A DNA stretch of 64,000 bases, from assembly GCF_007845675.1 (NCBI RefSeq), contig NZ_VOBR01000025.1, forward strand, positions 42,940 through 106,939. The letters run 5' to 3'. This document shows, piece after piece, positions 4,350-20,050 of this stretch. The notes under the pieces are model-generated. The model was given only the letters and a program-made list of their open reading frames with translations. It was not told the origin of the DNA and did no database searches. Source of the DNA: Lentzea tibetensis (lineage in GTDB: Bacteria > Actinomycetota > Actinomycetes > Mycobacteriales > Pseudonocardiaceae). Positions within the stretch are counted from its first letter, which is position 1. Each line of letters starts with the position of its first letter. The position numbers were made by a program, and so were the translations under genes.

Positions 4350-4411
4350 GCCGAAACCTCCTGCACAGGGAGGCGGCCTGGGGCTTCAGCGTGAAACCCG
4401 ATGGCGTTGCG

Positions 4412-4432
4412 TGTCAATGGGTATAGACCAAT
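4412..4432 (-). promoter_or_regulatory. Chitinase promoter -35 (TTGACA) abutting a candidate DasR operator
   Basis: On the minus strand ATTGGTCTATACCCAT (4432-4417) matches 12 of 16 positions of the dre consensus ACTGGTCTAGACCACT as I remember it, bound by the GlcNAc-6P-responsive repressor DasR that controls actinomycete chitinases. It directly abuts TTGACA (4417-4412), a perfect -35 hexamer pointing at the chitinase. No good -10 was found at 17-18 nt, so the exact promoter is uncertain. The site also lies ~30 nt upstream of the divergent nitrile-hydratase-like genes. Confidence 0.55.
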
Positions 4433-4463
4433 CGCACTAGCCGCGGGTGTGGGAAGCTGGGGC

Positions 4464-4751
4464 ATGAGCCGAATGCACGACGTCGGCGGAGCGGACGGCT
4501 TCGGCCCGATCGTGGAGGAGCCGGACGAGCCGCCGTTCCACTCCGACTGGGAAGCACACGTGTTCGCCATGAACCGCGCCCTGGTCGCGGGCGGCGTCTA
4601 CAACCTCGACGAGTTCCGCGACGCGGTCGAGCAGCTGCCCGGCTACCTGACCTCGTCCTACTACGAGAACTGGTTCAACGCCATGTGCGCTCTGCTGGTG
4701 CGCAAGGGCGTGTTGAGCGCTGACGAGGTGGACCATGTTCCAGGTGGGTGA
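4464..4751 (+). CDS. Nitrile hydratase-like beta subunit, N-terminal half (separate gene)
   Basis: Equivalent to the N-terminal helical half of nitrile hydratase beta. It opens with the beta-specific M..HDVGG.DGFGP motif, then FHSDWEA.VFA and a YYENW motif. At 95 aa it ends where an ordinary ~220-aa beta subunit would continue into its SH3-like half, which is encoded by the next gene in another frame. The two genes overlap by 17 nt (4735-4751). Thiocyanate hydrolase and toyocamycin nitrile hydratase also have three subunits, and thiocyanate hydrolase is known for a beta split of this kind. The ATG at 4464 is chosen for the conserved N-terminus; an ATG at 4473 is possible. Confidence 0.85.
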   Translation: MSRMHDVGGADGFGPIVEEPDEPPFHSDWEAHVFAMNRALVAGGVYNLDEFRDAVEQLPGYLTSSYYENWFNAMCALLVRKGVLSADEVDHVPGG

Positions 4752-4986
4752 TCGGGTGCGGACCTCTGCTGCCGCGGTTCCTCATCACACCCGGCTGCCC
4801 GCGTATGCGCGCGGGTGTGCGGGCACGGTCGTCGGTGTCGAGGGCAGGTGGCCGCTGGCCGACGCTCGAGCTCAGGGGGCTGTGGTGGTGCAGCCCGTCT
4901 ACACCGTGCGGTTCTCCGCCTCCGAGTTGTTCGGCGCCGGGTCGCACTCGGTGACGTTGTCGATGTGGGAGGAGTACCTGACGTGA
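4735..4986 (+). CDS. Nitrile hydratase-like beta subunit, C-terminal half (separate gene)
   Basis: 83-aa protein matching the C-terminal SH3-like barrel of nitrile hydratase beta: F.VGDRVR, HTRLP.YARG..G, QPVYTVRFSA.ELFG and a closing MWE.YL. Its ATG lies inside the previous gene and its TGA overlaps the GTG of the alpha gene (4983-4986), so the three products are probably made in step. Splitting beta into two chains while keeping every conserved motif argues for a working three-subunit enzyme rather than a frameshifted pseudogene. A single-base error in the assembly is the main alternative, but two separate overlapping starts with conserved termini make that less likely. Confidence 0.85.
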   Translation: MFQVGDRVRTSAAAVPHHTRLPAYARGCAGTVVGVEGRWPLADARAQGAVVVQPVYTVRFSASELFGAGSHSVTLSMWEEYLT

Positions 4987-5561
4987 CGCATTCCAGCTCT
5001 CCTCTCGCCGCTCGGGTCCGGCACGTCGAGGCGTTGCTCGAGTCGCGCGGGCTGGTCGATCCCGTCGAGCTCGATCGGGCGTTGGAGGCGTTCCTCGCGC
5101 GGGCTTCTCCGGCGAACGGGGCTCGGATCGTCGCTCGGGCGTGGGTGTCCGACGAGTTCCGGGCACGGTTGCTGGACGATGCCGGGGCCGCGTTGGCGGA
5201 CGTCGGGTTGTCCATGGGTGGCGGGTTGCAGGTGCAGCGGCTTTGCGTCGTGGAGAACACTCCTGCGGTGCACAACGTCGTGGTTTGCACCCTGTGCTCC
5301 TGCTATCCCATTGCGCTGCTGGGGCCCTCGCCCACCTGGTACAAGAGTCCGGCTTATCGGGCTCAGGTGGTTCGGGATCCTCGTGGGGTGCTCGAGTCGT
5401 TCGGGTTCTCGCCTGACGGGGAGATCGCGGTGTGGGACGCCAACGCCGAGACTCGGTACATGGTGTTGCCCATGCGGCCCGGTGGGACTGAGGGCTGGGA
5501 TGAGGAGCGGCTGGCCGGGCTCGTGACGCGCAACGGGCTGATCGGCGTCGCGCCGGTGTAG
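4983..5561 (+). CDS. Nitrile hydratase-like alpha subunit, cobalt-type claw
   Basis: Catalytic metal-binding subunit of a nitrile hydratase/thiocyanate hydrolase family enzyme, converting a nitrile or related C-N substrate to its amide. The claw setting is C102-T-L-C105-S-C107 followed by YP; Thr at the second position is the cobalt-type signature (iron enzymes have Ser). Cys105 and Cys107 would be the oxidised sulfinate/sulfenate ligands. The conserved WYKSPAYR motif follows. The GTG start overlaps the preceding TGA by 4 nt and begins a normal N-terminus (192 aa, usual ~200). No obvious activator (P14K/P47K-like) or cobalt transporter gene is adjacent, so maturation factors may lie elsewhere. 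Substrate cannot be told from sequence. Confidence 0.88.
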   Translation: MTHSSSPLAARVRHVEALLESRGLVDPVELDRALEAFLARASPANGARIVARAWVSDEFRARLLDDAGAALADVGLSMGGGLQVQRLCVVENTPAVHNVVVCTLCSCYPIALLGPSPTWYKSPAYRAQVVRDPRGVLESFGFSPDGEIAVWDANAETRYMVLPMRPGGTEGWDEERLAGLVTRNGLIGVAPV

Positions 5562-5614
5562 CGGATGGACGGTCTCCGACGACATGCAGACCAGCGAGTT
5601 CGCGGGAGGCCCAC

Positions 5615-6194: not shown

Positions 6195-6341
6195 TGACAC
6201 AGCGCCACGTTCCCGCTGTGGTCGACCTTCTTCGGCTTCGCCTTCCTCGGCGAACCACTCGGCTGGCACACCGCCGTGGGCGCGGCGCTCGTCATCGCGG
6301 GCATCACGTTCACCAGAGCGAGAAACGCGGTCACACCGCCA
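6195..6341 (+). pseudogene. Remnant of an EamA/DMT-family permease C-terminus
   Basis: From 6219 the plus strand reads WSTFFGFAFLGEPLGWHTA and then a GAALVIAGI-type helix ending in FTRAR. This is the last two-helix hairpin typical of EamA drug/metabolite transporters (family pattern: FLGE.L......GA.LI..GI). An in-frame TGA sits just upstream at 6195-6197 and no start or upstream helices remain, so only ~40 codons of a ~300-codon gene survive. Its 3' end runs into the convergent Hsp70-like gene. The region 6005-6330 otherwise holds the promoter motif described separately and no other gene. Confidence 0.6.
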
Positions 6342-7860
6342 TCTCCGCGTCCAGCGCCACCACACCAGGATCGTCCGGTTTGAACTTGCGGCACTCCTCC
6401 AGCAGCTCGGCGGCGTCCGCGCGGTGGCCGCGTGAGTGCAGGAAGCGGGCCTGAGCCAGGTTGCGCTCGAACAGCTCGGTGACGACCTCCTCGTTGAACC
6501 GGGCGTGGCTCTCCGCGCACTTCAGCCATTCACGTGCTGCCGGATAGCCCTGGGGACCGGCGGCAGCGCGGGCCGCGCGCAGGTGGATGTCGATCATCTG
6601 GCGGAACACGTCGTTGTCGTCCGCTGCCATCTGCCACGCCAGGTGGGAGTCCTGCACGGCCTTGGCCAGGCTGCCGTTCTCCAGCAGGCGGCCGGCGCGT
6701 TCCAGCGTGCGGTGTGCGCTGTTCGACTTCACCGCGGGGGCGGCGTCTATCTCGGCGCGCAGGCGGACGGCCTCGTCGATCAGGTCCGTCAGCACGCGGC
6801 GGGCCTCGGCCGCGTTGCCCGCCGACCACAGGCTCCTGGCCGCGGACAGCGGATCCGTGCGCGGAACGGGCAGTGCCACCGCCGCGCTCTGCGACGGCTC
6901 GGTGTCGATGAACTCCGAGTCCTGCGGCACGGCCGCAGGCGCGTCACCCAGCTGAGCCCCGTACACCGCGGCTCCGCGCGCGAGGTGGAAGGCCGATGTC
7001 GGCACTCCCGGCTGGCCGACCTCCGCGTGCAGCACAGCGGGTACCGCGGACAGGGCGGTCGACCCGCCGACGAGCAGCACCGTGTCGATGTCGCGGACCA
7101 GGAGGTCCGTCTCCGAGAGGACTTCGCGGACGCGCGCGGCCGTCTTGCCTACCAGGTCGGCCACCAAGGCGAGGAAGTCGGCGGGTGACGGCCAGCCGGA
7201 CACCTCCGTGCCCGCGGCGAGCTGTTCCTTCACCCGCGCGGCAACGTACCGCTGCCGCGTCCACTCGTCGGCGTCCCACAGCTGGATCGCGGCTAACTCG
7301 GACCCGCGCAGCGCCTGCAGCCACGCGGTCAGCAGCTGCCGGTCGAAGTGGTCGCCGCTCGGCGTGTCCGCGCCGATGTGGCCGAGCACCCGCACCTGGC
7401 TCCTGGCGACCCGGACCAGGCCGACCTCGAAACCGCTGTGCCCCATGGAGTACACGAGCACGGTCCGCGCGCCCGAGCCCTCCGAGGCGAGCACCGCCGC
7501 GACCGAGTCGTTGATCAGGTGCACTTCCGGGAACCCGGCCGACCGCGCCGCCTCGCGCAGCGCGCCGCGGTCCCGCGAGTCCATCCGGGCGGGCACGGTC
7601 AGCACGGCACGGCGAACGTCCATTCCGGACTCCGCGACGACGCGCTCCCGCACCGACACCAGAGCGGTGACCAGCTGCCGCACCGCCTCCGGTGAGCGCT
7701 GCTGCTTGACCGGGACGAAGTCGACCGCGCCGGGCCTCAGCCGCGCGACGACCCACGGTTCGTCCGACGGCACGGCGAGATCCACCGGCGCGCCGTCCTG
7801 ACCGGACCACGCGACCCGCAGCCCGAGGCTGCCGACGTCGATACCAGCGACTGCGTTCAT
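6331..7860 (-). CDS. Degenerate Hsp70-like protein, last gene of the CHAT/chaperone operon
   Basis: 509 aa. The N-terminal ~330 residues follow the Hsp70/actin fold: GIDVGSLGLRVAW at phosphate-1, VLTVPARMD, INDSVAAVLA, and a VLLVGGSTALSAVP adenosine motif. Key residues differ from DnaK: the TTN of phosphate-1 is SLG, and the DLGGGTFD loop reads SMGHSGFE, losing the catalytic Asp and two Gly. ATP hydrolysis is therefore doubtful. There is no recognisable substrate-binding beta domain; residues ~340-509 look like helical repeats (AARSLWSAGNAAEARRVL..., RADAAELLEECRKF), TPR-like. The ATG overlaps the stop of the DnaK-like gene by 4 nt. It may act as a pseudo-chaperone or scaffold partner of its neighbour; that role is inference. 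Confidence 0.8.
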   Translation of the reverse strand: MNAVAGIDVGSLGLRVAWSGQDGAPVDLAVPSDEPWVVARLRPGAVDFVPVKQQRSPEAVRQLVTALVSVRERVVAESGMDVRRAVLTVPARMDSRDRGALREAARSAGFPEVHLINDSVAAVLASEGSGARTVLVYSMGHSGFEVGLVRVARSQVRVLGHIGADTPSGDHFDRQLLTAWLQALRGSELAAIQLWDADEWTRQRYVAARVKEQLAAGTEVSGWPSPADFLALVADLVGKTAARVREVLSETDLLVRDIDTVLLVGGSTALSAVPAVLHAEVGQPGVPTSAFHLARGAAVYGAQLGDAPAAVPQDSEFIDTEPSQSAAVALPVPRTDPLSAARSLWSAGNAAEARRVLTDLIDEAVRLRAEIDAAPAVKSNSAHRTLERAGRLLENGSLAKAVQDSHLAWQMAADDNDVFRQMIDIHLRAARAAAGPQGYPAAREWLKCAESHARFNEEVVTELFERNLAQARFLHSRGHRADAAELLEECRKFKPDDPGVVALDAEMAV

Positions 7861-9956
7861 CGAGCAGAAGGGTTCTTCGTCCGGAGCAGGTCGCTGGGGT
7901 CGGCCAGCGCGCCACCGCTCTGCTTGCGCAGCTCCCGCTGGATCAGCTCACCCAGCACCTTCTCGGACAACGCGCGCCGCGCGTCGTTCTTCTGCTCGTG
8001 CGCCTGCCGCACCTCCTGCGCCTTGCGGCGGATGTTCTCGCACTCGGCGGGCTCGGCGCGTTCGGCGACGATGTCCGCGTAGTACAACGTGGTCGCGAGG
8101 CCGCTCGTGTCCAGGTCGCGGTAGAGCAGGCCGGCGTAGCGGCGCTGCTCCTTGTCGTCCTGCCTGCGGAACGCGTCCTTCGCGTTGTGCAGCCGCGACT
8201 TGATCCGGTCGCGGTGCCACGGCTCGATGTAGGAGTCGTACTTGGCGACGAACATCTCGACGATGTCGATGGCCCGCTCCAGCTCCTCCGTTGACTCCTC
8301 CTGAGGTGCTGGCGAGCCGTTCTCCACCGCCTTCGGGTGCAACGTCGCCGACTGCACGAACGTCGTCCCCGGCACGCGGACCACGACGGTGACGACGCGG
8401 TCGCCGTCGTAGTTGAAGCTCACCTCGACGTCGCTGTTGGGCTCGAGGCCCTCCGGCAGCTCGACCTCGATGACGCCCTGCACGCGGTTCTTGCTGGCGA
8501 TCTTGTGCACGCCCTCGTGCACCGGCACGCGCACCTGACGGCCCGCCGCGGTGAACACCTTCGTCATCGGCTTCGTCAGCGGGTACTGCGTGCCCTTCGG
8601 GATGATCTCGACGAACGCATCCGGGTTGTCGCCGTCGACGGCCGCGATGCCCAGCGCCATCGTCGTCTGCTCGTAGATCACCAGCCCGGACGCGGACATC
8701 GCGCCGTGCAAGGAGTTCTTGCACTTCGAGCAGTTCTCGGACTCGTCGTCGTTGACGGTCCCGCACGACGGGCACTCGAGGCCGCTCACCGCGTCGGCGA
8801 GGATCGCCGCACCGAGCGCGACGCACTCCATCGGCTTGTCCATCCGCACCTTGTCCGCGCCGAACCGGCTGACGACGGCCTCGCGGACGGACGTGGTGAG
8901 CGTCGACCCGCCGACCAGCAGCACGTCGGTGATGTCCTCCGGCGTGAAGTTGCCCTCCGCGAGCACGCTGTCCACCAGCGCCATGGTCCGCGCCACGAGC
9001 GGCGCGATGAGCCGCTTGACCTCTTCCCTGGTGACCTCGTAGAACACGTCCACCAGCGGCCCGTCCGGCGAGGTGCGGAACGCGCCGGGGATGTTCACCT
9101 CGGCGAACTCGCTCTGCCCCAGCCTGCGCTTCACCTGCTCCGCGCTCTCCTTGAGCAGCCTGCGGAACTTCTGGTCCAGCATCGGCTCGCCGTACTCGGC
9201 GCGGATCTGGTCGAGCACGTGGTCGACGATCAGGTGGTCGAAGTCGTCGCCGCCGAGCCAGTTGTCGCCGGCGGCACCGGCGACCTGGAGGTGGTTGCGG
9301 CCGTCGCCGTCCTGCACCATCTGCAGCAGCGAGATGTCGAACGTGCCGCCACCCAGGTCGTAGACCAGCACGCGCTTGCCGGTCGTCCCCACCTCGCGCA
9401 CGCCGTACGCGATCGCCGCCGCGGTCGGCTCGTCGATCAGCCGCTTCACCACCAGGCCCGCCGCCTCGGCCGCCTGCCTGGTCGCCGCGCGCTGGGCGAT
9501 CTCGAAGTAGGCGGGCACGGTGATCACCGCGTGCGTGACCTCGGTGCCGAGTCCCCTGCCGACGTCCTGCTTGATCTTGTGCAGGATCAGGCTGGAGATC
9601 TCGGTGGGCGTCCGGACCTCCTTGCCCATCCGGATCGCGGCCGTCGGGTCCGTCTCGGACGCCGGGACGATCTCGTAGTCGAACCGCTTGCTCACCTCGG
9701 CGACCTGCGGCTCGCCGACCGTCCGGCCCATCAGCCGCTTGACGGAGAACACCGTCGTGGTCGAGTCCTTCGCGCCGTGCACCGCGTCCTCGCCGACGAC
9801 GGCGTACTCGTCGCCGTTCTTGCGCGTGCGCACGCCGACCACGGACGGTGTGTGCGGTTTCGCGTCCACCTGCAGGACTTCTGTCGTCTTGCGGTCCGGG
9901 TAGTGGACGGCCGCCACCGAGTTGGTGGTCCCGAGGTCGATGCCGATTGCCTTCAT
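7857..9956 (-). CDS. DnaK-like Hsp70 with zinc-ribbon insert
   Basis: 699 aa against ~620-640 for housekeeping DnaK. The nucleotide-binding domain is intact: GIDLGTTNSVAAV, YDLGGGTFDISLL, IDEPTAAAIAYG and VLLVGGSTLT. After the last helix of that domain, at ~395-412, sits an insert with a CPSC-x10-CSKC zinc ribbon, unusual for Hsp70. A beta substrate-binding domain follows (ALGIAAVDG..., IIPKGTQYPL, and a GVIEVELPEG segment), then a charged helical lid. The start overlaps the GrpE-like stop (9953-9956) and its stop overlaps the next Hsp70-like start (7857-7860). With its own GrpE and J-like partners encoded alongside, it looks like a dedicated chaperone rather than the housekeeping one. Confidence 0.88.
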   Translation of the reverse strand: MKAIGIDLGTTNSVAAVHYPDRKTTEVLQVDAKPHTPSVVGVRTRKNGDEYAVVGEDAVHGAKDSTTTVFSVKRLMGRTVGEPQVAEVSKRFDYEIVPASETDPTAAIRMGKEVRTPTEISSLILHKIKQDVGRGLGTEVTHAVITVPAYFEIAQRAATRQAAEAAGLVVKRLIDEPTAAAIAYGVREVGTTGKRVLVYDLGGGTFDISLLQMVQDGDGRNHLQVAGAAGDNWLGGDDFDHLIVDHVLDQIRAEYGEPMLDQKFRRLLKESAEQVKRRLGQSEFAEVNIPGAFRTSPDGPLVDVFYEVTREEVKRLIAPLVARTMALVDSVLAEGNFTPEDITDVLLVGGSTLTTSVREAVVSRFGADKVRMDKPMECVALGAAILADAVSGLECPSCGTVNDDESENCSKCKNSLHGAMSASGLVIYEQTTMALGIAAVDGDNPDAFVEIIPKGTQYPLTKPMTKVFTAAGRQVRVPVHEGVHKIASKNRVQGVIEVELPEGLEPNSDVEVSFNYDGDRVVTVVVRVPGTTFVQSATLHPKAVENGSPAPQEESTEELERAIDIVEMFVAKYDSYIEPWHRDRIKSRLHNAKDAFRRQDDKEQRRYAGLLYRDLDTSGLATTLYYADIVAERAEPAECENIRRKAQEVRQAHEQKNDARRALSEKVLGELIQRELRKQSGGALADPSDLLRTKNPSAR

Positions 9957-10366
9957 GGACGTGGCTCCTCTTCCTGTCCCGCGACGATCACCTCGGCGGG
10001 CCGGAAGACCCTGCCGTCCCGCTGGTAGCCCCGGCGCACCACCTCGACGACGGTGTCCTTCGCGGCGTCAGAATCTCGTGCGACACCAACGACTTCGTAG
10101 CGGCTGAGGTCGACGGTGTCGCCCGGTTCGCCGAACACCACCAGCCCCGCCTCCCCCAGCGCGCCCCTGAGCTGGCTGCCGAGCCGCCCCACGGTCGTGA
10201 GCAGCGCGGCCGGGTTGTCCGGCGACCACCCGCCGCGCGCGTGCGCGTCGATCCGGTCGAACGAGTCGAGCACCGGTATCAGCGACTGCAGCAGCTCTTC
10301 CAGCTCGTCGCGCAGCTCGAGGCGCTCCAGCATCCCGCGCGCCAGCCTGCTGTACTCGTCGGTCAC
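9953..10366 (-). CDS. GrpE-like nucleotide exchange factor (short)
   Basis: 137 aa with a long N-terminal helix (LARGMLERLELRDELEELLQSLIPVLDSFDRI) and a small beta domain ending VVEVVRRGYQRDGRVFRPAEVIV. The latter closely matches the GrpE signature (V.EV...GY...G.vlRpA.V.V). The usual long charged N-terminus of GrpE (~180-200 aa) is missing. GTG at 10366 is preceded by GGGAGGTGA and overlaps the previous stop by 4 nt. It is placed directly before the DnaK-like gene and most likely releases ADP from that Hsp70. Confidence 0.85.
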   Translation of the reverse strand: MTDEYSRLARGMLERLELRDELEELLQSLIPVLDSFDRIDAHARGGWSPDNPAALLTTVGRLGSQLRGALGEAGLVVFGEPGDTVDLSRYEVVGVARDSDAAKDTVVEVVRRGYQRDGRVFRPAEVIVAGQEEEPRP

Positions 10367-10587
10367 CGGTCACCTCCCGGGAACACGAACAGGTCGACGA
10401 AGAGCCTGCGGTCGCGCAGCCTCAGCTCGTCCCACGCCACCCGCGCCTCGTGGGTGAACCTGTTGTCCCGCAGCAGCTTGAACGACGCGTTCTGCACCTC
10501 CGCGTGCGACGACTCCGGCGTGATGCCGATGTCCGCGAACACGTCGTACGGGAACGGCCCGTCCCACGCGGTGAGTGGATCTTTCAC
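10363..10587 (-). CDS. Small J-domain-like protein lacking HPD
   Basis: 74 aa, too small for most gene callers but fixed by 4-nt overlaps on both sides (10584-10587 and 10363-10366). The body, from FPYDVFADIGITPESSHAEV to RRLFVDLFVFP, has the helix spacing of a J-domain (LGI.p.as..Ei...). The HPD tripeptide that activates Hsp70 is absent. A clear relative lies inside the big CHAT protein at about residues 1005-1065 (FPYRVLAPLGIGPDASMPEI..., ending KRLPVDADLYPI). It is probably a small adaptor between the CHAT/TPR protein and the Hsp70, which is inference from position and resemblance. Confidence 0.7.
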   Translation of the reverse strand: MKDPLTAWDGPFPYDVFADIGITPESSHAEVQNASFKLLRDNRFTHEARVAWDELRLRDRRLFVDLFVFPGGDR

Positions 10588-13500
10588 GGTGTGCTCCCAT
10601 CGGACTGGCTCGCGGCCCAGCGCCGCACGAGCTCGGTGAGCGTGCGCTGGGCGAAGATCTCCTTGGGGTCGGCGGCGACGGCGTCCACCGCGAGCAGCAG
10701 CGCGGACATCAGGTCCGCCTCGGCGAGCGCGCTCTTCGCGAGCCGGACCGCCGTCACCGAGCGGGCCTCGTCCGGCCGGTGCGCACCCGGTTCGAGCCGC
10801 ATCAGCTCGTCCGGCGTCATCGTTCCGTAGATCACCGAACGCACCTGGTCGGCCGCGGTCTCCAGTGCCTCCAGCAACTGGATCATGCCCGGCGCCGAGC
10901 GCAGGCCACCGGTCAGCACGGTCAGCGCCTCGGCGAGCGCCACCGCGTGCCCGCCCGCCCACGGCCGGTCCATCGACCGCTGCACCAGCGTGTGCGCGAG
11001 GCCGACGCGCGCCATCATCGTCGCCGGGTTCAGCTCGATCGCCAGCCGCAGGTCGTCGATCGCCTGGTCGTAGTCGAACGAGAAGTCGAACGCGAGGTCG
11101 ACGACCTCCAGCATGATCGCCTGCGCCCGCCGGTACAGGGCCTCGGCGTGCGCGCGCCGGAGCAGGTCGTCCGTGCGCAGGCCGGGGATCTCGCGGACCC
11201 GTTCGACCAGCTCGACCGCGCGCTGCGGCCGTTGCACGCGGCCCGGTCCCGGAGGGGTCATCGCCTCCACGGACGCGTCCACGAACTCGGCGATCTCCCG
11301 GCGGGCGCGCGCGGCGAGGCCGGCGCTTCCCGCCATCTGCAAAGCGGTGCGCAGCGACCGGACGGCGGTGTCCACACCGGACTCCTCTTCGCCCGCCACC
11401 GCTGCGCGGGCGATGTCGATGTGGCAGCGCACCGCGATGCGCGCGGAGTCCTGCCACAGCCGCGCCTCCCGGCCGCCGAGGTAGGTGTAGGCGGGGTCCG
11501 TGTCGAGGAACGCCCGGCACGTCTCGCATTCGCCGCCGGTGCAGCCGCAGCTCCGGTTCGCCTCGGCGAAACCCGCCTTGGGCCGTTCCGGCAGCATCGC
11601 GAGCGCCCGCTCCGGACGGCCGTCCTCCAGCAATGCCCGCGCGGGCGCGAGTCGGGAGAACGCCGCGCACAACCGCGTGACCAGCTCGGCGGACACCGCC
11701 TCACCGTCCTCTTCGGACGGTGTGCGATCGGCCCGCCGCACCAGGTCCGCGGCCAGCCTGGCCAGTGCGTCCGACAGCCCGGCGACGCGCTGGAACGCAG
11801 GCCCGCCGAGCACTCCGGCCACCGTCGTCCGCTCCGCCAGCTCGGCGAGCACGTCCCTGCCCAGCCGCTCCACCCGCACCGTGAGGCCGAGCGCGCGGTA
11901 GTGCGCGGCCAGCGCCGGACGGCCGTCCCGGTCGTGCTTCTCGGCCGCGGCGTGCAGCTCGCCGGTCAGGTGCTCGAGCATCCGGCGGCGCAGCGCGCGG
12001 ATCTCCAGCACCGGCACCATGAAGCGGTAGCGCAGCGAGCGCCCCTGCCGCCAGCGCTCCCAGTACTCCTCGTCGCCGAGCGTCGTGACCCACATCCCGA
12101 TGCACCGCTGCCACGCCTGGCGGCCGTGCTCCCACGCCTCCGCGCGATCGAGATCCCTTGCCGCCCACCGATGTGCGATCGCGAGGCAGTGCGCGGTGAC
12201 GGTGTCCGCCGGGTCCGCGCGCAGCAGCTCCTCCCAGGCGGTGATCGCCTGGTGACGTCCGACGTGCAGCAGCGTCAGCAGCGGCGCGTCGCTCGGCGCC
12301 GCCGCGCACAGCCGCTCGAACAGGTTCGACGGCTCGCCCTCGGTCAACGCGCCGAACGCGCGGCGCAACGTCTCCGCGTCGCGGATCGGGTAGAGGTCGG
12401 CGTCGACCGGGAGCCGCTTGTCCCACGACCGGAACGTCGCCGCGACACCGATGGCGGCGGCCACGTTCTCCCGCATCGCCCGCATCTCGACGTCCTTGAT
12501 CTCCGGCATGGACGCGTCCGGCCCGATGCCGAGCGGCGCGAGCACCCGGTACGGGAAGTCCTCCTCCACCTCGGCGCTCGGGTCCGGCACCAGCGAGGCC
12601 TCGCGCAGGCGCCGCGTCCAGCCGAACGACGCCATCAGCTCGGTGAGCAGCGCGCGTCGCGCGGGCACGTCGGCGTGGTCGTCGGGCAGCTGCCCGTAGC
12701 TCTCCAGCGCCTCGTCCCAGCGGCCGCCGGTCTCCAGCGCCCGCGCCCGCGCGTAGCCGAGCCGGACGTCGGCGTCCGCGTGGTGGCAGCCGGTGTACAG
12801 CTCGACGGCTGCCGCCCAGTCCTCAGTGGACTCGGAGATGCGCGCTCCGGCGTACCGCGCAAGCGCTTTCGCGTCGCGGAACCCGCCGAGCGCCTCGGCT
12901 GCCGTCGCGGCGGCGACCCAGTCCTCGCGGTCGAGCGCCGCGCGAACGACCGCGTACCCGGCTCGCGGACCGGACTCGGCGAGACCGGCGGGCAGTCCGG
13001 CGAACCAGCGCTCGGCCTCGGGCCAGTCGCCCGCGTCCTCCGCCATCCGGCCGCGCACCAGGTCCCGCCTCGACACGACGTCCTTGACGCCGTCCGGAAC
13101 CCGTTCGTAAGCCTCCAGCGCGGCCGGGAGGTCGCCGTCGTTCTCGGCGACCCGGCCCGTCGCGTAGCCGAACAGTCCAGCCAGCTCCTCGGTGGGCGGC
13201 GGGATCGAGCGGTAGGCGTCGACCAACGCGCGGTGGTCGTCGCGCGCGTCGGCGGCGCGGCCGAGCGCGATGGCGCGCAGCAGCGCGATCTCGTCGTCAT
13301 CGTCGAGTCCGTGCAGCGCCTCGACGACGGCCTGCCAGTCGCTTCGTTCCTCGGCGATGCGGGCACGGGCGAGCCCGCGCATGCGGCTCACCTCGCCGTG
13401 CTGGAAACCCGGTGGCAGCAGGTGCAACGCGTCCAGCACAGACGGCCACAGCCCGGCGTCGAACGCGACCCTGCCGTCAGCGAACCGCACGTGCACGCGC

Positions 13501-15584
13501 ACGTCGCGGTACTGGTCGGGCAGCTCGTGGAAGATCTTCGCCGCGTCGGCGAAGTCACCGCGATCGGCGGCGGCCCTGCCCCGTGCGTACGGCAGCGCCA
13601 GCCCGGCGTCCACACCGCGGTCGGCGGCGGTCTCGTAGCACTCCACCGCGGCCGCCCACGTCCCGTCGGCCTGGTGCCCGCGGCACAGCGCCTCGCGCCC
13701 GATCGCGTCCGCGACGTCACCGGCCGACGCGTACGCCTCGATCGCGCCGGCCACGTCCTTCACCGCCTCGCGGACGCGGCCGTGGCAGTAGGCGCGCCAC
13801 GGCCCGGCGTCGCGGTAGCCGTCCGGCCGGGTGTGCAGCACCGCGTCGAACGCGGCCGCCGCGGCGGCCCAGTCACCGGCGTCGCGGTGCTCGGACGCGC
13901 GCTCGAACAGCACGGCCAGGTTCTGCTCGTCGAGCGCCCGCTCGCGCAACGCCACCGCGTCCCGGTAGCCGTCCGGCAGGTCCGCGGTGATCTCGTCGCA
14001 GTACGCGATCACCGACTCCCACGCGCACGCCTCAGCGGCCTGCCCGGCGGCACGCAGCGCGGTGGCCGCCTTCGCCGCCAGCCCGACCTCGGTCGCCACG
14101 CAGTCGAACACCTGCTCCGGCACCGCGTGCTGCACACCGTCGAGCAACGACTCCGCCGCGGTGACGTCGTTGCGCCCGAGCAGCTCGCCGATCATCTTGA
14201 ACCGGTCGGCGACCTGCTCCAGCCGTCCCTCCTGGGCCAGCCACTCCAACGGCTCCGGGTGGTCGTCGCGGCCCATGTCGGCGTAGCGGACGACCTGGTT
14301 CCAGTCACCGCGCAGCCGCGCGAACCGGCTCGCCTCGACCAGCGACTCCAGGCGGACGACCCCGTCCGTCGGATCGTCCACATCGGACATCGCCTGGTGG
14401 CCGCGTGCGAGCGGGTCGTGCGGCACGACGCCCTGGTTGACGACCTTGACCGCCTTGAACAGCCACGTGTGGCGGCACTGCTGGTGCAGCGACAGCACCG
14501 GCGTCGCCCACTCCATCGTGGTGTCGTCGAGCACGTTGACCATGTCGTTGCGGGCCTGTGCGACCGCCTCGTCGAGCGAGCCGTTCGTGGCCAGCGCGGC
14601 GAAGAGCGACGGCGTGAACCGCGCGGCGGCGACGTTGCTGACGTCCGCCTGCATCGCCACCACGGCGGGCACACCACCGGCGATCAGCTCGTCCGCGACC
14701 GCGGGTGCGGCCGGTGCGCCTTCCGCGCCCGCGCAGAGGTTCAGCACGACCAGGCGCACGTTCTGCGCGGCCGCGAGCTCGGCGGCGAGCCGGTCGCCCG
14801 CGATCGGGTCCGGCGAGCCGTCCTTGTTCTCCAGGAACACCCGGCCGCCGCGGGTGCCGTCGCCACCGGTGCCGTGCCCGAGCACGACGACCGCCGCGGG
14901 CATCTCGGTGTGCTTGGCCAGCGCGGCGCGCAGGTTCGCGAGCGTCGGCCTGGTGCGCCGCTTGCGGTCGGGCGCCCAGCCGAGCACCTCGGTCACCACC
15001 GCGGCCGGGTGCGCGCCGCGCAACATGGTCTCCTGCAACGCGGACACCTCCGCGCCGAGGTCGAGCGACCCGTCCTGCGGCTCGGCGACCACGACCAGCA
15101 CGCGGAACCGCGACGGCCTGCTCGACGGCGTCGGCAACCGGCCGGGCGACAACCCGCCGCCGGGCAGTGACCTGGTGAGCGAGAACCGCGTGTCGCCTGC
15201 CAGCCTGCGGTACGGCAGCGGCGGGCAGAGCACCTCGATCGGCAGGTCCGCGAGCGCGGACGGCAGCTCGAACCGCACCCGCAGCGACCGGCGGTGCTCC
15301 TCGGCCCGGCGCGCGCTCTCGAACAGGCACGCCGCGACCGGTTCGGGGAACAGCACGCCGAACAGCCGCTCCCCCAGCTCGCGAACCCGTTGGTGCACCG
15401 AGAGCTCCGCGCGTTCGACGCGGCGGAACTCCTCGTCCAGCAGGCGTTCGAACGACGCGCGGAACCCGTTGTCGCGTGGCACGCGCGTCACCGCGGCCGC
15501 CGACGACGGGCCGTTCGCCAGCACGAGGTAGCGGTTGCGGCCGATCTCGGAGACGCGGATGCGGAGCTCTTCGTACTCGTTCAC
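10584..15584 (-). CDS. Giant CHAT-protease/TPR protein with J-like and Cys-cluster modules
   Basis: 1666 aa, cytoplasmic (no signal or membrane segment). Residues ~110-350 form a CHAT (caspase-like) peptidase domain with His237 in LGHGTGG and Cys284 in LNLCAG, a proper His/Cys dyad. Residues ~390-1000 are a long array of helical TPR-type repeats (W..AV.A.......A..GRA pattern about every 34-40 residues). A J-like segment lies at ~1005-1065. The C-terminal ~550 residues share a module with the neighbouring 542-aa protein: DPADT...H.LA, a W..CIG.W motif, LAPARALL and a CGC...CETC cluster (~1345) followed by DPAY...GGRE. The start is the GTG at 15584, which overlaps the previous stop by 4 nt. In other systems TPR-CHAT proteins are proteases unleashed by partner sensing. 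Here chaperone partners are encoded downstream. Confidence 0.88.
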   Translation of the reverse strand: MNEYEELRIRVSEIGRNRYLVLANGPSSAAAVTRVPRDNGFRASFERLLDEEFRRVERAELSVHQRVRELGERLFGVLFPEPVAACLFESARRAEEHRRSLRVRFELPSALADLPIEVLCPPLPYRRLAGDTRFSLTRSLPGGGLSPGRLPTPSSRPSRFRVLVVVAEPQDGSLDLGAEVSALQETMLRGAHPAAVVTEVLGWAPDRKRRTRPTLANLRAALAKHTEMPAAVVVLGHGTGGDGTRGGRVFLENKDGSPDPIAGDRLAAELAAAQNVRLVVLNLCAGAEGAPAAPAVADELIAGGVPAVVAMQADVSNVAAARFTPSLFAALATNGSLDEAVAQARNDMVNVLDDTTMEWATPVLSLHQQCRHTWLFKAVKVVNQGVVPHDPLARGHQAMSDVDDPTDGVVRLESLVEASRFARLRGDWNQVVRYADMGRDDHPEPLEWLAQEGRLEQVADRFKMIGELLGRNDVTAAESLLDGVQHAVPEQVFDCVATEVGLAAKAATALRAAGQAAEACAWESVIAYCDEITADLPDGYRDAVALRERALDEQNLAVLFERASEHRDAGDWAAAAAAFDAVLHTRPDGYRDAGPWRAYCHGRVREAVKDVAGAIEAYASAGDVADAIGREALCRGHQADGTWAAAVECYETAADRGVDAGLALPYARGRAAADRGDFADAAKIFHELPDQYRDVRVHVRFADGRVAFDAGLWPSVLDALHLLPPGFQHGEVSRMRGLARARIAEERSDWQAVVEALHGLDDDDEIALLRAIALGRAADARDDHRALVDAYRSIPPPTEELAGLFGYATGRVAENDGDLPAALEAYERVPDGVKDVVSRRDLVRGRMAEDAGDWPEAERWFAGLPAGLAESGPRAGYAVVRAALDREDWVAAATAAEALGGFRDAKALARYAGARISESTEDWAAAVELYTGCHHADADVRLGYARARALETGGRWDEALESYGQLPDDHADVPARRALLTELMASFGWTRRLREASLVPDPSAEVEEDFPYRVLAPLGIGPDASMPEIKDVEMRAMRENVAAAIGVAATFRSWDKRLPVDADLYPIRDAETLRRAFGALTEGEPSNLFERLCAAAPSDAPLLTLLHVGRHQAITAWEELLRADPADTVTAHCLAIAHRWAARDLDRAEAWEHGRQAWQRCIGMWVTTLGDEEYWERWRQGRSLRYRFMVPVLEIRALRRRMLEHLTGELHAAAEKHDRDGRPALAAHYRALGLTVRVERLGRDVLAELAERTTVAGVLGGPAFQRVAGLSDALARLAADLVRRADRTPSEEDGEAVSAELVTRLCAAFSRLAPARALLEDGRPERALAMLPERPKAGFAEANRSCGCTGGECETCRAFLDTDPAYTYLGGREARLWQDSARIAVRCHIDIARAAVAGEEESGVDTAVRSLRTALQMAGSAGLAARARREIAEFVDASVEAMTPPGPGRVQRPQRAVELVERVREIPGLRTDDLLRRAHAEALYRRAQAIMLEVVDLAFDFSFDYDQAIDDLRLAIELNPATMMARVGLAHTLVQRSMDRPWAGGHAVALAEALTVLTGGLRSAPGMIQLLEALETAADQVRSVIYGTMTPDELMRLEPGAHRPDEARSVTAVRLAKSALAEADLMSALLLAVDAVAADPKEIFAQRTLTELVRRWAASQSDGSTP

Positions 15585-17209
15585 CTGGCGGCCCCGAACA
15601 CCCAGTACCTGATCTTCGCCCAGGTCTTCCGCCACCAGCTCTGCTTCGGCCGGGGCGCGGGGCGTTGGACCTCAGCCGGCCGGACGACCGGCGGCTGCAG
15701 GCGCGCGGTCGCCTGCCGTGCGCGGTTCTGGAACGCCTTCGCCTGCTTGATCATGGCCTGGCTCATCAGCATCGTGGAGTCACCCGGCCGTTCCGTCAGC
15801 GCTCGGCCGATGACCTCCAGCGCGTGGTCGTGGTCGCCCCGCTCGTGCGCGTTGAGCGCCTGCGCGTTGTGCATGCCGCCGATGGCGCTCGCCAGCTGCT
15901 CCATCAGCTCGCCGATCTCGGTGTCCTTGCCCGCGCGGGGGAACGCGCGGAGCACCGTCCGCGCCTCGTCCATCAGCACGAGTGCGTGCCCGAAGTCGGC
16001 GTCGGCGGGATCGGCCGGGATGCTCTGCGTCGCCGCGTTCTGCAGCAGGACGACCAGATTGCGGCACGCGTACCAGGACAACGGGTTCAGCTCGGCCGCC
16101 CGGCGCAGGTCCGCGAGCGCGGACAGGGCGTCCGGGTCGGCGCGCTGGACACCGCGCTGCGCCAGCAGCTCGCTCAGCATGCGCGTCACCTCACCGAAAT
16201 CAGCGCCGAACACCGCCTCGGCCGTACCGACCGGTACCGCGGTGAGCACGTCGATCGCGTCGTCGTAACGCCGCTTCTGCAGGAAGAACCGCGCCCGCGG
16301 GAGCACGATGTCCGTGACGTGGCAGCGGAACTGCTCGTCCGCGCCCTGCCGGATGGCCGCCGTCCAGTGCTGACCGGCGGTGCGCAGATCCGGTTCCGGC
16401 GCGGTGACCGCGGTCTCCGCGACGCTCAGGTGCGCCTCGACCGTCATCGCGACGGCCTCGGCGCGCAGCTTCTTGCGGCCACCGACCGCGTGCGCGTACG
16501 CCGGGTTCTGCCGCGCGAACGCCGGGCAACCGGTGCGGCACAGCCGGGGCGGCTCACCGGACGCGGGGCAGTCCGCGCACCGCAGGTCCTCCAGGCTGGT
16601 CAGCGCGGCCAGCGGCGCACCCTGGTCGAGCAGCATCCGCGCCGGACCGAGCTGCGAGAAGTACTTGGCGGTGCGCCGGTTCCGCTCGTCACGTGAGGCG
16701 TTCAGCCGGGCGACGAGCTCGCGGCACTCGTCGTGCAGCTCGAGGTGGTCGATGAGCAACGGTCCACAAGGGATCTTCTTCTTCGTCGCCCCAGCGGGGA
16801 TTCCGCCGCGCACGGCGACCAGCCGGGCCGCGCGCACCTCCAGTGCGAGCAGCGCGGCCGTGCCGCTGTTCGCGCCGCGCGTCACGGTGTCGTGCAGCCA
16901 GTGCTCCAGCCGGTCGCGCACGGCATCGACCTCCGCCGACGGCACCTCCGTGCGGTAGCGGCGGGCGGCGTCCGTCGTGAACCACGCCCAGAAACCGGAG
17001 TCCGCCAGCAGGTTCGCCCACAGCCCGATGCACAGCCGCCAGTCGTCCTCGCCGCCGTTCACCAGCTGCCACAACGTCATCAGTGCCAGCGCGTGGGTGA
17101 CCCGGAAGTCGGCTGGGTCGGTGCGGTGCGCGTCGACGAGCAGCTCGACCGCGTGCTCGCGGTCGTCGCGTTCGAGCAGGCGGAGTGCTTCCGCGTGCGG
17201 CTCGCTCAC
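15581..17209 (-). CDS. TPR/Cys-cluster protein, paralogue of the CHAT protein C-terminus
   Basis: 542 aa without a CHAT domain. It parallels the C-terminal third of the CHAT protein in order and motifs: TDPADFRVTHALA, WRLCIGLWANLL, a W..WFTT segment, LGPARMLL, a LRCADC....CRTGC cluster (~209-228) and QNPAYAHAVGGRKKL. Then come TPR-like repeats, with a basic Pro/Arg/Trp-rich tail. Four Cys in the cluster suggest a bound zinc. The GTG at 17209 overlaps the HEAT-gene stop by 4 nt, and its own stop overlaps the CHAT start (15581-15584). It probably arose by duplication within the operon and may be the non-catalytic partner or regulator of the CHAT protein. Confidence 0.75.
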   Translation of the reverse strand: MSEPHAEALRLLERDDREHAVELLVDAHRTDPADFRVTHALALMTLWQLVNGGEDDWRLCIGLWANLLADSGFWAWFTTDAARRYRTEVPSAEVDAVRDRLEHWLHDTVTRGANSGTAALLALEVRAARLVAVRGGIPAGATKKKIPCGPLLIDHLELHDECRELVARLNASRDERNRRTAKYFSQLGPARMLLDQGAPLAALTSLEDLRCADCPASGEPPRLCRTGCPAFARQNPAYAHAVGGRKKLRAEAVAMTVEAHLSVAETAVTAPEPDLRTAGQHWTAAIRQGADEQFRCHVTDIVLPRARFFLQKRRYDDAIDVLTAVPVGTAEAVFGADFGEVTRMLSELLAQRGVQRADPDALSALADLRRAAELNPLSWYACRNLVVLLQNAATQSIPADPADADFGHALVLMDEARTVLRAFPRAGKDTEIGELMEQLASAIGGMHNAQALNAHERGDHDHALEVIGRALTERPGDSTMLMSQAMIKQAKAFQNRARQATARLQPPVVRPAEVQRPAPRPKQSWWRKTWAKIRYWVFGAAR

Positions 17210-18792
17210 CAGTCCCCCCGCGGCGCCGTGCGGATGGCCGTGGTGATGCGCGGGTGCAGTCCGGGTTCCGCGGCCAGCGCCGTCCACACCGCCGCGGTGT
17301 CGGGGTCGGCGCGCGGGACCGACGCGGTGACGTTGTCGGCCAGCTCGGGTTCGAGGTCGCCTGGTCCCCAGACCTCCAGGCAGCAGTCACCGACGACGAC
17401 GTCGCTGTCGAGCAGCCGCAGCCGCGCCTCGCAGCGGTCGGTCCGGTGGTTCCAGCGCAACGGAGCCAGCAGCAGGTGGTGTGCGGCGGTCCGGATCGGC
17501 AGCCTGGCCACCATCCTGCGGTCGGTGATGCCCAGCCCGTCGACCTCGGCGACGACCACGTCCCCACCGGTGCGCCGGATCGTGACGGTGCGACCGTCCT
17601 GATCGGACACCACGAGCAGCGTGGCCGGTTCCGCGTCACCCGCGGCGTTGCGCACCGTCACGGGCGCGGAGCTAGCGACGAGATCGTGGACGCTCCTGGT
17701 GCTGCGCTCCCCCATGATCCGCAGGTCGTACCCCATCGTCGCGGCGACACCGGGCAGCCGGAGCTGGGCGAGCTCGTCGAAGCGCCCCGAGTGCACGTGC
17801 GCGTCGGGCCCGAGCGACCACAGCGAGCCGATCAGCCCGGCCACCTCGTCACCCGGCCGCACCGCGACCACGACCGTGCCGCGATCGGACGGGTGCGGGT
17901 TCACCAGCAGCGCGACGCCGTCCTGTTCGACGACGACACCGGCCGGCAGGTCGATCCGGTGCAGCAACCGCGCCGCGGCCGCCGCCGTCCGCGCGGGGTG
18001 CACCGGCGCGGGCGGGTCGGCGAACACCGGGTCCGCGGACGGCCGGTGCACCTCCCACCCGCTGTGCACGACCTGGCCGAGGCGGGCCAGCACCTCCTCG
18101 GCCGCCTCGCGCACCGCCGGGTCGCGACCCGCGTCACCGCGAACGTCCTGCAGCGTCGAGGAGATCTCCGCCGCGCCGACCAGTCCGAGGCTCACGACGG
18201 CCGCGTGCTGCACGAACCACACCGGGTCGTCGACGGCCGCCAGCAACGGTGGCGCCGCGGACGGCCCGCCGACCTCGCCCAACAGCTCGGCAGCCGCTTT
18301 GCGCACGATCGCCTCGCCGTTGGCACTGAGCTGCGCCACGACCGGCTCGATGTCGATCGCCGACCACGTCTCACCGCGCGCCGCGTCCCGCAGCGCGTCG
18401 AGTGCTTCGCAGCAGGCGATCGGGTCCTCGTCGGAGATCGCGTCGAGCAGCGTGCCGAACTCAGGAGCCGGAGCGGTCGTCGCGACCTGCGGCTCGTGTT
18501 CGGCTTCCAGCAGCCCGACGTCCCAGCTGCCGGGACGCAGGCCGCGCACGACGCACTGGCCGTTGCGGTCGAGACGTTCGTAGTGGCAACGGCCACCCGG
18601 TTGCGCGGCCACCACCCACAGGCCGTCGAAGTCCTGGCCGTCGTCGAGGGGGAAGACCGTCACCATCAGCGAGTCGGCGCGGCCGAGCAGGTCGATCCAC
18701 GCGGTGTCGGACGTGCGGAGCTCACGACCGGGCAGCCGCACCGGGGCGGTGGACAGCAGACCGCGGCTCTCCGCGACGAACGGACGCGTCAT
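17206..18792 (-). CDS. HEAT-repeat protein of the CHAT/chaperone operon
   Basis: 528 aa. The middle (~110-250) has HEAT-type helical repeats: ACCEALDALRDAA, EAIVRKAAAELLGEVGG.SAAPPLL, VWFVQHAAVVSLGLVG and VREAAEEVLARLG. The flanks are beta-rich and unfamiliar; the N-terminal part has a CarboxypepD/sarpB-like feel (C.VRGLRPGSWDVGL) that I cannot assign. No transmembrane segment. The ATG at 18792 overlaps the zinc-ribbon gene stop (ATGA), and the stop overlaps the next GTG (17206-17209). HEAT arrays usually bind other proteins, so a sensor or scaffold role is possible. Confidence 0.7.
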   Translation of the reverse strand: MTRPFVAESRGLLSTAPVRLPGRELRTSDTAWIDLLGRADSLMVTVFPLDDGQDFDGLWVVAAQPGGRCHYERLDRNGQCVVRGLRPGSWDVGLLEAEHEPQVATTAPAPEFGTLLDAISDEDPIACCEALDALRDAARGETWSAIDIEPVVAQLSANGEAIVRKAAAELLGEVGGPSAAPPLLAAVDDPVWFVQHAAVVSLGLVGAAEISSTLQDVRGDAGRDPAVREAAEEVLARLGQVVHSGWEVHRPSADPVFADPPAPVHPARTAAAAARLLHRIDLPAGVVVEQDGVALLVNPHPSDRGTVVVAVRPGDEVAGLIGSLWSLGPDAHVHSGRFDELAQLRLPGVAATMGYDLRIMGERSTRSVHDLVASSAPVTVRNAAGDAEPATLLVVSDQDGRTVTIRRTGGDVVVAEVDGLGITDRRMVARLPIRTAAHHLLLAPLRWNHRTDRCEARLRLLDSDVVVGDCCLEVWGPGDLEPELADNVTASVPRADPDTAAVWTALAAEPGLHPRITTAIRTAPRGDW

Positions 18793-19721
18793 CGCACCCA
18801 CACCTCCTGGGTCCGGCACAACCGCAACCGGCGTTCGTCGATGGCGTCCCCCAACCCGTGCCCGCAGTCCTCCCCTGCAACGCGGCTCGCGTCGCATTCG
18901 TGGCATCGCACGGAGAACAGCTCATCGCACCCGGCACAAGGGACGGTCAGCTCGTCGACCGCACGCCACCGCCCGCACCCGCGCGTCCCGCACCGCATCT
19001 GCAGCTTGGAGCCGCAGGCCTCCAGCGGACATCCCTCACCGGCGTCGACCCGCGCGGTGTCGAAGTACCCGCCGCACGAGTGGCACAGCACCCGCCGCAC
19101 CTTCCGGTACCCGCCGGCGCGCGGGTAGAGCAGCACGTGCCGCGCGACCTCGCGCCGGTTGACCGCCGGGTCGTCGGGCGTCCCGCACTCGCCGCAGGTG
19201 TCAGCTCCTTCGAACCGCCGCCCGCACGCCGCGCACCGGCGCACCTCGGCGTCCGCGATGACCAGCGGCTCCAGGCCTGCCCGGTCGAGCACGGGCCGGA
19301 GCATGCTGCGGCCGAACACGTCCCCCCACACCGCACCGCGCAGCTCGGGGCTGCCGTGCACGGCGATCGAGACGAACTCGCCGAGCGACATCTCGCCGGG
19401 CACCCACGACCTGAGCGCGTGCCCGCGAACGCAGCACGCGCACCGCGTCTGCCGCGGCCGGCAGATCCGGGCGTGGTGACCGCACCCGCACCGTCCGCTG
19501 ACCAGGCCGAGCACCAGCAGGACAGCCGTGCGCTCGACCCACTCCTCGCGGTTCGCGCGGTTGAGCCGCCATTCAGGGAAATTCGCGGTGAACGCGCGAA
19601 TCTGCGCGCGCAATATCCGCACAGCGGCACCGACGCGACTCCCGGTCACGTGATTCAGCACCTCGACGGATCGTGACCAGGGCGCAGCGGGTTCCTCGGC
19701 GGCGGCGTCGCTCATCCTCAC
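18789..19721 (-). CDS. Multi-zinc-ribbon protein of the CHAT/chaperone operon
   Basis: 310 aa with over 25 Cys arranged as successive ribbons/knuckles: CGCGHHARIC...CACC, CAACGRRF....CGEC, CHSCGGYFDT...CPLEAC and CGTRGCGRW....CAGC...CHEC. It is not a known enzyme. The N-terminal ~100 residues are helical with an NREEWVERTAVLL stretch. GTG at 19721 overlaps the previous stop by 4 nt; the internal ATG at 19715 is an alternative. The same operon puts zinc ribbons in the DnaK-like protein and Cys clusters in two TPR proteins, which suggests a shared redox- or metal-sensing theme; that is inference. Confidence 0.7.
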   Translation of the reverse strand: MRMSDAAAEEPAAPWSRSVEVLNHVTGSRVGAAVRILRAQIRAFTANFPEWRLNRANREEWVERTAVLLVLGLVSGRCGCGHHARICRPRQTRCACCVRGHALRSWVPGEMSLGEFVSIAVHGSPELRGAVWGDVFGRSMLRPVLDRAGLEPLVIADAEVRRCAACGRRFEGADTCGECGTPDDPAVNRREVARHVLLYPRAGGYRKVRRVLCHSCGGYFDTARVDAGEGCPLEACGSKLQMRCGTRGCGRWRAVDELTVPCAGCDELFSVRCHECDASRVAGEDCGHGLGDAIDERRLRLCRTQEVWVR

Positions 19722-20050
19722 GCACCCAGTGCGCCGACCGAGATCGCGGCTGCCCAGGGTTCTTCCTGTTCAGCGGCGCGGGCGAAGGAATAGCGGAGTG
19801 CTTCGGAAGGTGCCCCCACATCTCGCGGTGCCAACACCTTCAGCATCACCAATCCCCGCTCCTCGAGCGTCAGCGGGCGGTCCAACGCCCGTTCGACAAC
19901 CGACACCGGATCGTCCAACTCGTTGTCCTGCTTCGGGTTCTCCACCAGTCGCACCAGGTCGGCGACCGGCAACGAGCCGAGCTCCGGCTCGACGTCGTCC
20001 AGGAGATCCCAGAAGTCACCCACCCTCGTCAATTCGCTCCAAGCGACCAT
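19718..20050 (-). CDS. Unknown 110-aa acidic protein, first gene of the CHAT/chaperone operon
   Basis: Not recognised. It is acidic and mostly helical (DFWDLLDDVEPELGSLPVADLVRLV...DDPVSVVERALDRPLTLEERGLVML), which recalls small adaptor or effector-associated helical domains. No membrane segment. The ATG at 20050 has no clear Shine-Dalgarno and lies 3 nt from a 12-bp palindrome; an internal GTG (VGDFWD) a few codons in is possible. As the leading gene its product may set assembly or be a target of the CHAT protease. Confidence 0.6.
   Translation of the reverse strand: MVAWSELTRVGDFWDLLDDVEPELGSLPVADLVRLVENPKQDNELDDPVSVVERALDRPLTLEERGLVMLKVLAPRDVGAPSEALRYSFARAAEQEEPWAAAISVGALGA

Follow-up and report, generated by a model that had tools for sequence, protein, structure and literature searches.

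Operon structure and gene content

A stretch of 64,000 nucleotides from Lentzea tibetensis (contig NZ_VOBR01000025.1, positions 42,940 to 106,939), referred to here as the window, carries on its minus strand nine genes that encode a predicted caspase-like protease of the CHAT family together with its own Hsp70 machine. Six of these genes were found to form a conserved core that recurs across actinobacterial genera and in a second phylum. A preliminary description, made from the sequence alone, had placed nine open reading frames on one strand; their order and positions were borne out by translation and are as follows, in order of transcription.

19718..20050, minus strand, gene 1, protein of unknown family, 110 amino acids (aa); clade-specific leading module
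18789..19721, minus strand, multi-zinc-ribbon protein, 310 aa from the longest start; clade-specific leading module
17206..18792, minus strand, HEAT-repeat protein (HEAT_2), 528 aa; clade-specific leading module
15581..17209, minus strand, TPR/Cys protein, 542 aa; paralogous to the part of the CHAT protein behind the protease domain, itself without a protease
10584..15584, minus strand, predicted CHAT-TPR caspase-like protease (Pfam CHAT), 1666 aa, dyad His237/Cys284
12348..12596, minus strand, internal J-like domain of the CHAT protein, by J-like profile match, without HPD
10363..10587, minus strand, stand-alone J-like protein, 74 aa, by AF2 model and fold ranking, without HPD
9953..10366, minus strand, GrpE-like nucleotide exchange factor (Pfam GrpE), 137 aa
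7857..9956, minus strand, private DnaK, 699 aa; ATPase motifs intact, zinc ribbon before the interdomain linker, NEPT Asn replaced by Asp
6331..7860, minus strand, degenerate Hsp70, 509 aa; nucleotide-binding domain only, DLGGGT lost, TPR-like tail

All eight junctions are overlaps of exactly 4 bp, with starts as implied by the frames, and the nine genes are therefore read as one coupled operon. Pfam searches of the nine proteins identified CHAT (E = 2.8e-18), GrpE (E = 1.8e-16), HEAT_2 (E = 2.8e-11) and HSP70, the latter in both the DnaK (E = 2.7e-98) and the degenerate Hsp70 (E = 9.4e-26); the TPR/Cys protein gave weak TPRs. The 110-aa, zinc-ribbon and J-like proteins matched no Pfam, NCBIfam or PADLOC family at E ≤ 0.1. 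When the nine proteins were compared to PADLOC, no specific antiphage model was matched, only weak HEAT-ARM and WGR models (E = 0.038 and 0.084); the best PADLOC match was PDC-M61B, on residues 167-289 only of the DnaK (E = 1.5e-6).

Conservation of a six-gene core

A scan of a genome collection gave 93 confirmed relatives, of which the best 80 were kept. They represent 79 distinct loci: 24 (L011-L034) that match past the CHAT domain and 55 (L035-L089) that match mainly at CHAT. Four of the 24 (L021, L022, L026 and L034) stop inside CHAT. The J-like, GrpE and DnaK genes continue on the same strand past CHAT in all 20 remaining actinobacterial loci, and the degenerate Hsp70 is present in every one of the 19 that extend beyond DnaK; for L020 and L025 the J-like gene was taken from the reading frames, and for L015 and L025 tblastn located the degenerate Hsp70. 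Directly upstream of CHAT there is a gene of the TPR/CHAT cluster in 24/24 loci, short in the fragmentary L034. The conserved unit is thus a six-gene core: the TPR twin, CHAT, J-like, GrpE, DnaK and degenerate Hsp70 genes.

An independent check was provided by a search of 199 Streptomyces genomes that started from DnaK and found three, the centre genome included; G580 carries the whole core, and G469 carries the J-like gene through to the degenerate Hsp70 on a 4-kb contig. As a control, all 55 loci of the generic CHAT group were inspected, of which 31 are at least 15 kb long; J-like and GrpE genes were found in L041 only. Pairwise distances among the six families correlate (r = 0.917-0.985, calculated without L015 and L025 and, for the TPR family, also without L020), a correlation that would also arise from shared descent alone. 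Two control loci have a distant Hsp70 near CHAT, at L067:2484-3626 (Rhizonema, a cyanobacterium) and at L089:16437-17375 (Herpetosiphon); these are possibly other CHAT-Hsp70 pairings.

The locus L041 belongs to Candidatus Thiosymbion, a gammaproteobacterium, and has all six core genes on one strand and in the same order. It reads TPR twin (1317 aa), TIR_2 protein, CHAT (1459 aa), J-like (171 aa), GrpE, DnaK and degenerate Hsp70. Family profiles matched the twin (E = 1.2e-61), the CHAT protein (E = 3.3e-103) and the J-like protein (E = 4.5e-22), and the J-like domain was also detected inside the CHAT protein (iE = 1.9e-16). The intervening gene (L041:6550-9600), between the twin and CHAT, encodes a 1016-aa protein with a C-terminal TIR_2 domain (E = 3.2e-12). 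TIR is a domain used by immune effectors, and no other single observation hints as strongly as this gene, from one locus, at a role in conflict. The proposal that protease and private Hsp70 set form one system was therefore upheld, as the genes stay linked in different genera and also in a second phylum.

The CHAT protease and its TPR twin

The CHAT domain (PF12770) scored 66.8 bits against a curated cut-off of 24, and the dyad numbering of the preliminary description, His237/Cys284, is correct for the 1666-aa product that starts at 15584. Conservation of this pair, on which the earlier proposal of a unified protease-chaperone system had also been staked, was complete in the query and 39 relatives (40/40 aligned rows), in favour of that proposal. 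Both residues were also invariant in the 21 rows of alignment A3, and the dyad is kept in L041. The predicted structure of the CHAT region matched SAVED-CHAT, Craspase TPR-CHAT and separase. The CHAT protein is predicted to be a caspase-like protease.

A profile of the small J-like protein matched all 21 CHAT proteins, with iE values from 1.1e-9 to 1.5e-21 (1.5e-11 for the copy in the window). On this profile evidence, which is new in this analysis, a copy of the small protein's J-like domain is present within the protease. A profile-profile comparison of the TPR/Cys and CHAT families gave a probability of 100 (E = 3.2e-57) over 879 columns, in an alignment that starts at CHAT column 570, behind the protease domain. 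The TPR/Cys protein is a protease-less paralogue, or twin, of the CHAT protein. Neither this relationship nor the internal J-like domain figures in the preliminary description.

The J-like proteins and the two Hsp70s

The AF2 model of the stand-alone J-like protein had a pLDDT of 84.0, and the top-ranked solved folds were largely J domains. The HPD motif was missing from 40/40 aligned J-like domains and from both L041 copies, which is also new in this analysis. With a likely J fold that lacks HPD, the small J-like protein of the preliminary description is no classical DnaK stimulator. Both HPD and basic helix II are lost, and on these sequence features the J-like copies may bind each other, not DnaK.

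The HSP70 match of the private DnaK extends across residues 3-659, the substrate-binding part included, and the phosphate-binding motifs are intact in all 21 system DnaKs (20 loci and the window). A further new observation is that EPT is preceded by Asp in 22/22 system DnaKs, L041 included, in contrast to Asn in all six housekeeping DnaKs, a label given here to near other DnaKs from four of the genomes. We take the Asn of NEPT to touch HPD; the literature search gave no paper on contact of R167/N170 with HPD. In a tree the system DnaKs fell on one side of a branch and the housekeeping DnaKs on the other (support 100/99, with a long-branch warning). A four-Cys zinc ribbon lies directly before the interdomain linker in 21/21 actinobacterial system members (residues 393-416 in the window). 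This ribbon is missing from the L041 DnaK, and its candidacy as a core sensor was demoted. The degenerate Hsp70 has lost DLGGGT in all 18 covering rows of its alignment, from which two of 20 rows (L015 and L025) were dropped as wrong or partial reading frames.

The leading genes

By tblastn against the 24 loci, relatives of the 110-aa, zinc-ribbon and HEAT genes were detected in L011 only, and the unity of all nine genes was rejected. The earlier view of a nine-gene unit holds for the six-gene core, which is kept together; the three leading genes are confined to a small clade. In the protein database there were eight matches to the zinc-ribbon protein and six to the HEAT protein, the window's own record included. 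Three of each lie on contigs with lengths of 25364, 1333244 and 11591, as do the three nearest relatives of the CHAT protein, and these were taken to be the same contigs. P0020 (contig 19114), the next nearest of the CHAT relatives, had no zinc-ribbon or HEAT match, so that the module may not be in every member of the clade, or may have been missed. The metagenome protein P0110, 376 aa long, matched the zinc-ribbon protein at 91% (over 53% of it) and the HEAT protein at 84% (over 37% of it), and may therefore be a fusion or a frame-joined record.

In 19 of the 24 loci the operon starts with a different gene of about 150 aa, c3, mostly followed by a longer TPR twin; 17 sequences were collected for the c3 alignment. 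Identification of c3 as EACC1 was rejected, since the EACC1 matches lie elsewhere and hhalign gave 0.1% (four EACC1-type sequences from ten loci). EACC1 (PF19953) was absent from the window genome and was found in four of eight system genomes, at other places.

Variation of the leading module between clades is what would be expected of a sensor. Together with the length of the CHAT protein and its twin, both of which are long repeat proteins, it is consistent with an Hsp70 set that merely assembles a large TPR/CHAT complex, while the TPR and leading proteins sense the real trigger. Such a role in assembly would not need the conserved J-like domain within the protease, the loss of HPD, the change from Asn to Asp or a degenerate second Hsp70, and we consider it fairly unlikely.

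Distribution, genomic site and regulation

A full-length CHAT relative was found in none of 24 congeners, and a match restricted to the CHAT domain in six (eight candidates scored per genome). The DnaK subfamily (E ≤ 1e-100; mostly five to seven candidates scored per genome) was present in one of 148 genomes of the class, which was the window's own, in five of 200 genomes of the family (five of 46 genera, own included) and in three of 199 Streptomyces genomes, centre included. The four other family matches coincide with the coordinates of L011, L012, L016 and L023.

Of three congener stretches compared for an empty site, only that of G024 aligned to the left flank, G014 and G011 being uninformative. 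Window positions 2020-5572 align with L147:14748-18314 of G024, and the window from 20161 onward aligns with L147 from 19796 onward. The intervening 14.6 kb (approximately) of the window faces about 1.5 kb of unrelated sequence in G024, in which tblastn detected no remains of any of the nine genes. The operon is accessory, and one congener has the site without it; gain and loss both fit. The window contains no tRNA and no clear boundary repeat. Its CHAT protein had no match among 72,556 plasmids at E ≤ 1e-20; that of L041 matched four plasmids, from Ruegeria, Arthrobacter, Nostoc and Tolypothrix, over the CHAT part only. No Hsp70 is annotated near the Ruegeria gene, and the Arthrobacter stretch carries no annotation. 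Among viral contigs there were 14 pattern matches, none of them a relative. Carriage of the operon by plasmid or phage was rejected on these searches.

No HAIR or CIRCE operator was found in the window at up to three mismatches, about one HAIR match being expected by chance. Membership of the heat-shock regulon through HspR or HrcA was rejected on this result.

These data bear on whether the operon serves proteostasis, with the private Hsp70 set handing damaged clients to CHAT as a quality-control protease and no death switch involved. A working chaperone would fit the intact DnaK motifs, the HSP70 match over residues 3-659 and the accompanying GrpE, and the linker zinc ribbon of actinobacterial members could sense the metal or redox state. 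We nevertheless regard this as unlikely: a presence in 5/200 family genomes, 3/199 Streptomyces (centres included) and 0/24 congeners is unlike that of a housekeeping machine, neither HAIR nor CIRCE was found in the window, Pfam identified no AAA+ unfoldase among the nine proteins, and some relatives have conflict-type neighbours.

A developmental or cell-cycle protease similar to HetF or separase, acting in mycelial actinobacteria with no part in defence, would account for the weak HetF similarity of the CHAT region and its separase-like fold. The HetF score was 47.6 bits against a cut-off of 1200, the operon is a rare accessory element, and a member with a TIR gene occurs in another phylum; this explanation is highly improbable.

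Neighbourhood of the operon

By eye, the genes on one side of the window operon encode an M28-type peptidase, a chitinase and a nitrile-hydratase-like protein, and those on the other side an ABC transporter and a sensor kinase. The nitrile hydratase alpha-type-like reading frame (4815-5561, plus strand, by eye) is conserved at the G024 site. Seven of eight flanking proteins had no PADLOC match; the eighth, the ATPase of the ABC transporter, matched ATPase models of several PADLOC systems (best mad3, E = 3e-29), which was taken as generic. The suggestion that the operon might sit in a defence island was not confirmed for the window, whose flank is unlike one, and it gained ground in some relatives, which lie beside a conflict-type cluster or carry a TIR gene.

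Eight of nine Streptomyces loci with at least 3 kb of downstream sequence have c7, c5, the FNIII-like c8 and then the kinase-like c9, the exception being L024; L014, with 0.8 kb downstream, has no c7 either. In L091 the next genes were assigned by Pfam to GAP1-C, GAP1-M, PP2C and protein kinase, with vWA below cut-off, and the same set was found in G580. The cluster is located as follows.

L091:12350-17992, GAP1/vWA-like/PP2C/kinase cluster beside a Streptomyces operon
L131:5447-10940, GAP1/vWA-like/PP2C/kinase cluster beside a Streptomyces operon

GAP1-C (PF20052) was absent from the window genome and occurs in three of nine system genomes (G061, G063 and G580), each with a single copy that lies 9 to 10 kb away from the DnaK gene of the operon. 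The operon thus adjoins a GAP1-type conflict cluster in three Streptomyces genomes. A c8 relative was found in nine of 61 Streptomyces genomes, of which only the centre, G061, is among the DnaK matches, so the FNIII-like gene of the cluster also exists without the operon. Pfam detected FNIII neither in the nine proteins nor in c8, which is FNIII-like by eye.

The Amycolatopsis locus L012 has a second Hsp70 cluster (L012:990-5806 and L092:1129-3280). Upstream there are genes for an Hsp70-vWA fusion and for a zinc-ribbon protein that begins, by eye, with a J-like part; beyond lie a further GrpE-like gene and an Hsp70.

A proposed chaperone-controlled switch

The favoured reading is that the cassette works as a chaperone-controlled switch for defence or self-killing. 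The J-like fold within the protease, its second copy, the missing HPD, the changed DnaK, the degenerate Hsp70 and the twin are oddities that all point at the meeting of DnaK and protease. By analogy with Pam16/Pam18 and bNACHT25, the simplest reading would be a holding complex without normal Hsp70 cycling. We tentatively propose, with a confidence somewhat short of even, that the CHAT protease is held inactive by its own DnaK-GrpE, probably through HPD-less J folds, and is freed when phage or misfolded proteins capture the chaperone.

For the holding, release, trigger, substrate and outcome of the protease, we infer the following steps. The two J-like domains would dock the protease and its partner on DnaK, or on each other in the manner of Pam16/Pam18, and no hydrolysis would be triggered. 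The TPR/Cys twin might cap or scaffold the protease, and the degenerate Hsp70 might hold or sense clients. Capture of clients, either phage or misfolded proteins, would free the protease, and cleavage would then halt growth or kill the cell ahead of the spread of infection.

A bolder version is that of an ancient immune system shared across phyla, with Hsp70 itself as the sensor: the private DnaK would be bait for chaperone-hijacking phage proteins, and the caspase-like protease, tethered to it by an HPD-less J fold, would fire when the bait is taken. We consider this version rather unlikely; if true, no earlier case of a caspase-like death switch gated by Hsp70 would be known in bacteria. The proposed switch raises a direct question, namely whether an Hsp70 can hold a death protease and serve as its sensor.

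Comparison with known systems

In Pam16/Pam18, the J-like and J-domain pair of mitochondrial Hsp70, as in the proposed switch, a degenerate J-like domain regulates an Hsp70 machine by J-fold pairing; Pam18 retains HPD, whereas both J-like copies here are without it (PMC3806816). Phage sensing by bNACHT25 needs DnaJ and is similar in that it passes through an Hsp70 co-chaperone; it combines host DnaJ with a NACHT protein, and no dedicated chaperone set is mentioned in the abstract (PMC12169576). The CHAT domain is N-terminal here, in contrast to Craspase TPR-CHAT (Csx29), in which the TPR part is N-terminal (PMC9729208). Pfam and NCBIfam detected no Cas families (the gRAMP/Cas7-11 partner) among the nine proteins, unlike type III-E CRISPR; the partner of this protease is an Hsp70 set, unlike that of type III-E Craspase. 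Pfam also detected no SAVED families among the nine, so activation must differ from that of SAVED-CHAT (8tl0).

A CHAT protease combined with an Hsp70 set was not described in the available parts of PMC8195603 and PMC8866957, and a title search of the open-licence PMC literature found no paper on a caspase-like protease tied to an Hsp70 set of its own. The combination is one not described in the open-licence literature searched. Its components have precedents, in that chaperones have been proposed as threshold-setters for effectors (Kaur 2020, PMC7159879) and phage sensing through DnaJ has been published (bNACHT25, PMC12169576).

The closest arrangement was the GAP1-N2 Hsp70/GrpE theme, in which an HSP70, a GrpE and an HSP70 without the peptide-binding domain share one neighbourhood (Kaur 2020, PMC7159879), and these three components are common to that theme and this operon. 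The centre of the theme is made up of a GTPase, GAP1 and an FNIII protein that carries a DnaJ or TPR fusion (PMC7159879); the centre of this operon is a predicted CHAT protease with an internal J-like domain, unlike the GTPase-based GAP1-N2. By the count of the literature search the word CHAT has no occurrence in that paper (Kaur 2020, PMC7159879), and some of the Streptomyces loci described here may be among the neighbourhoods it counted.

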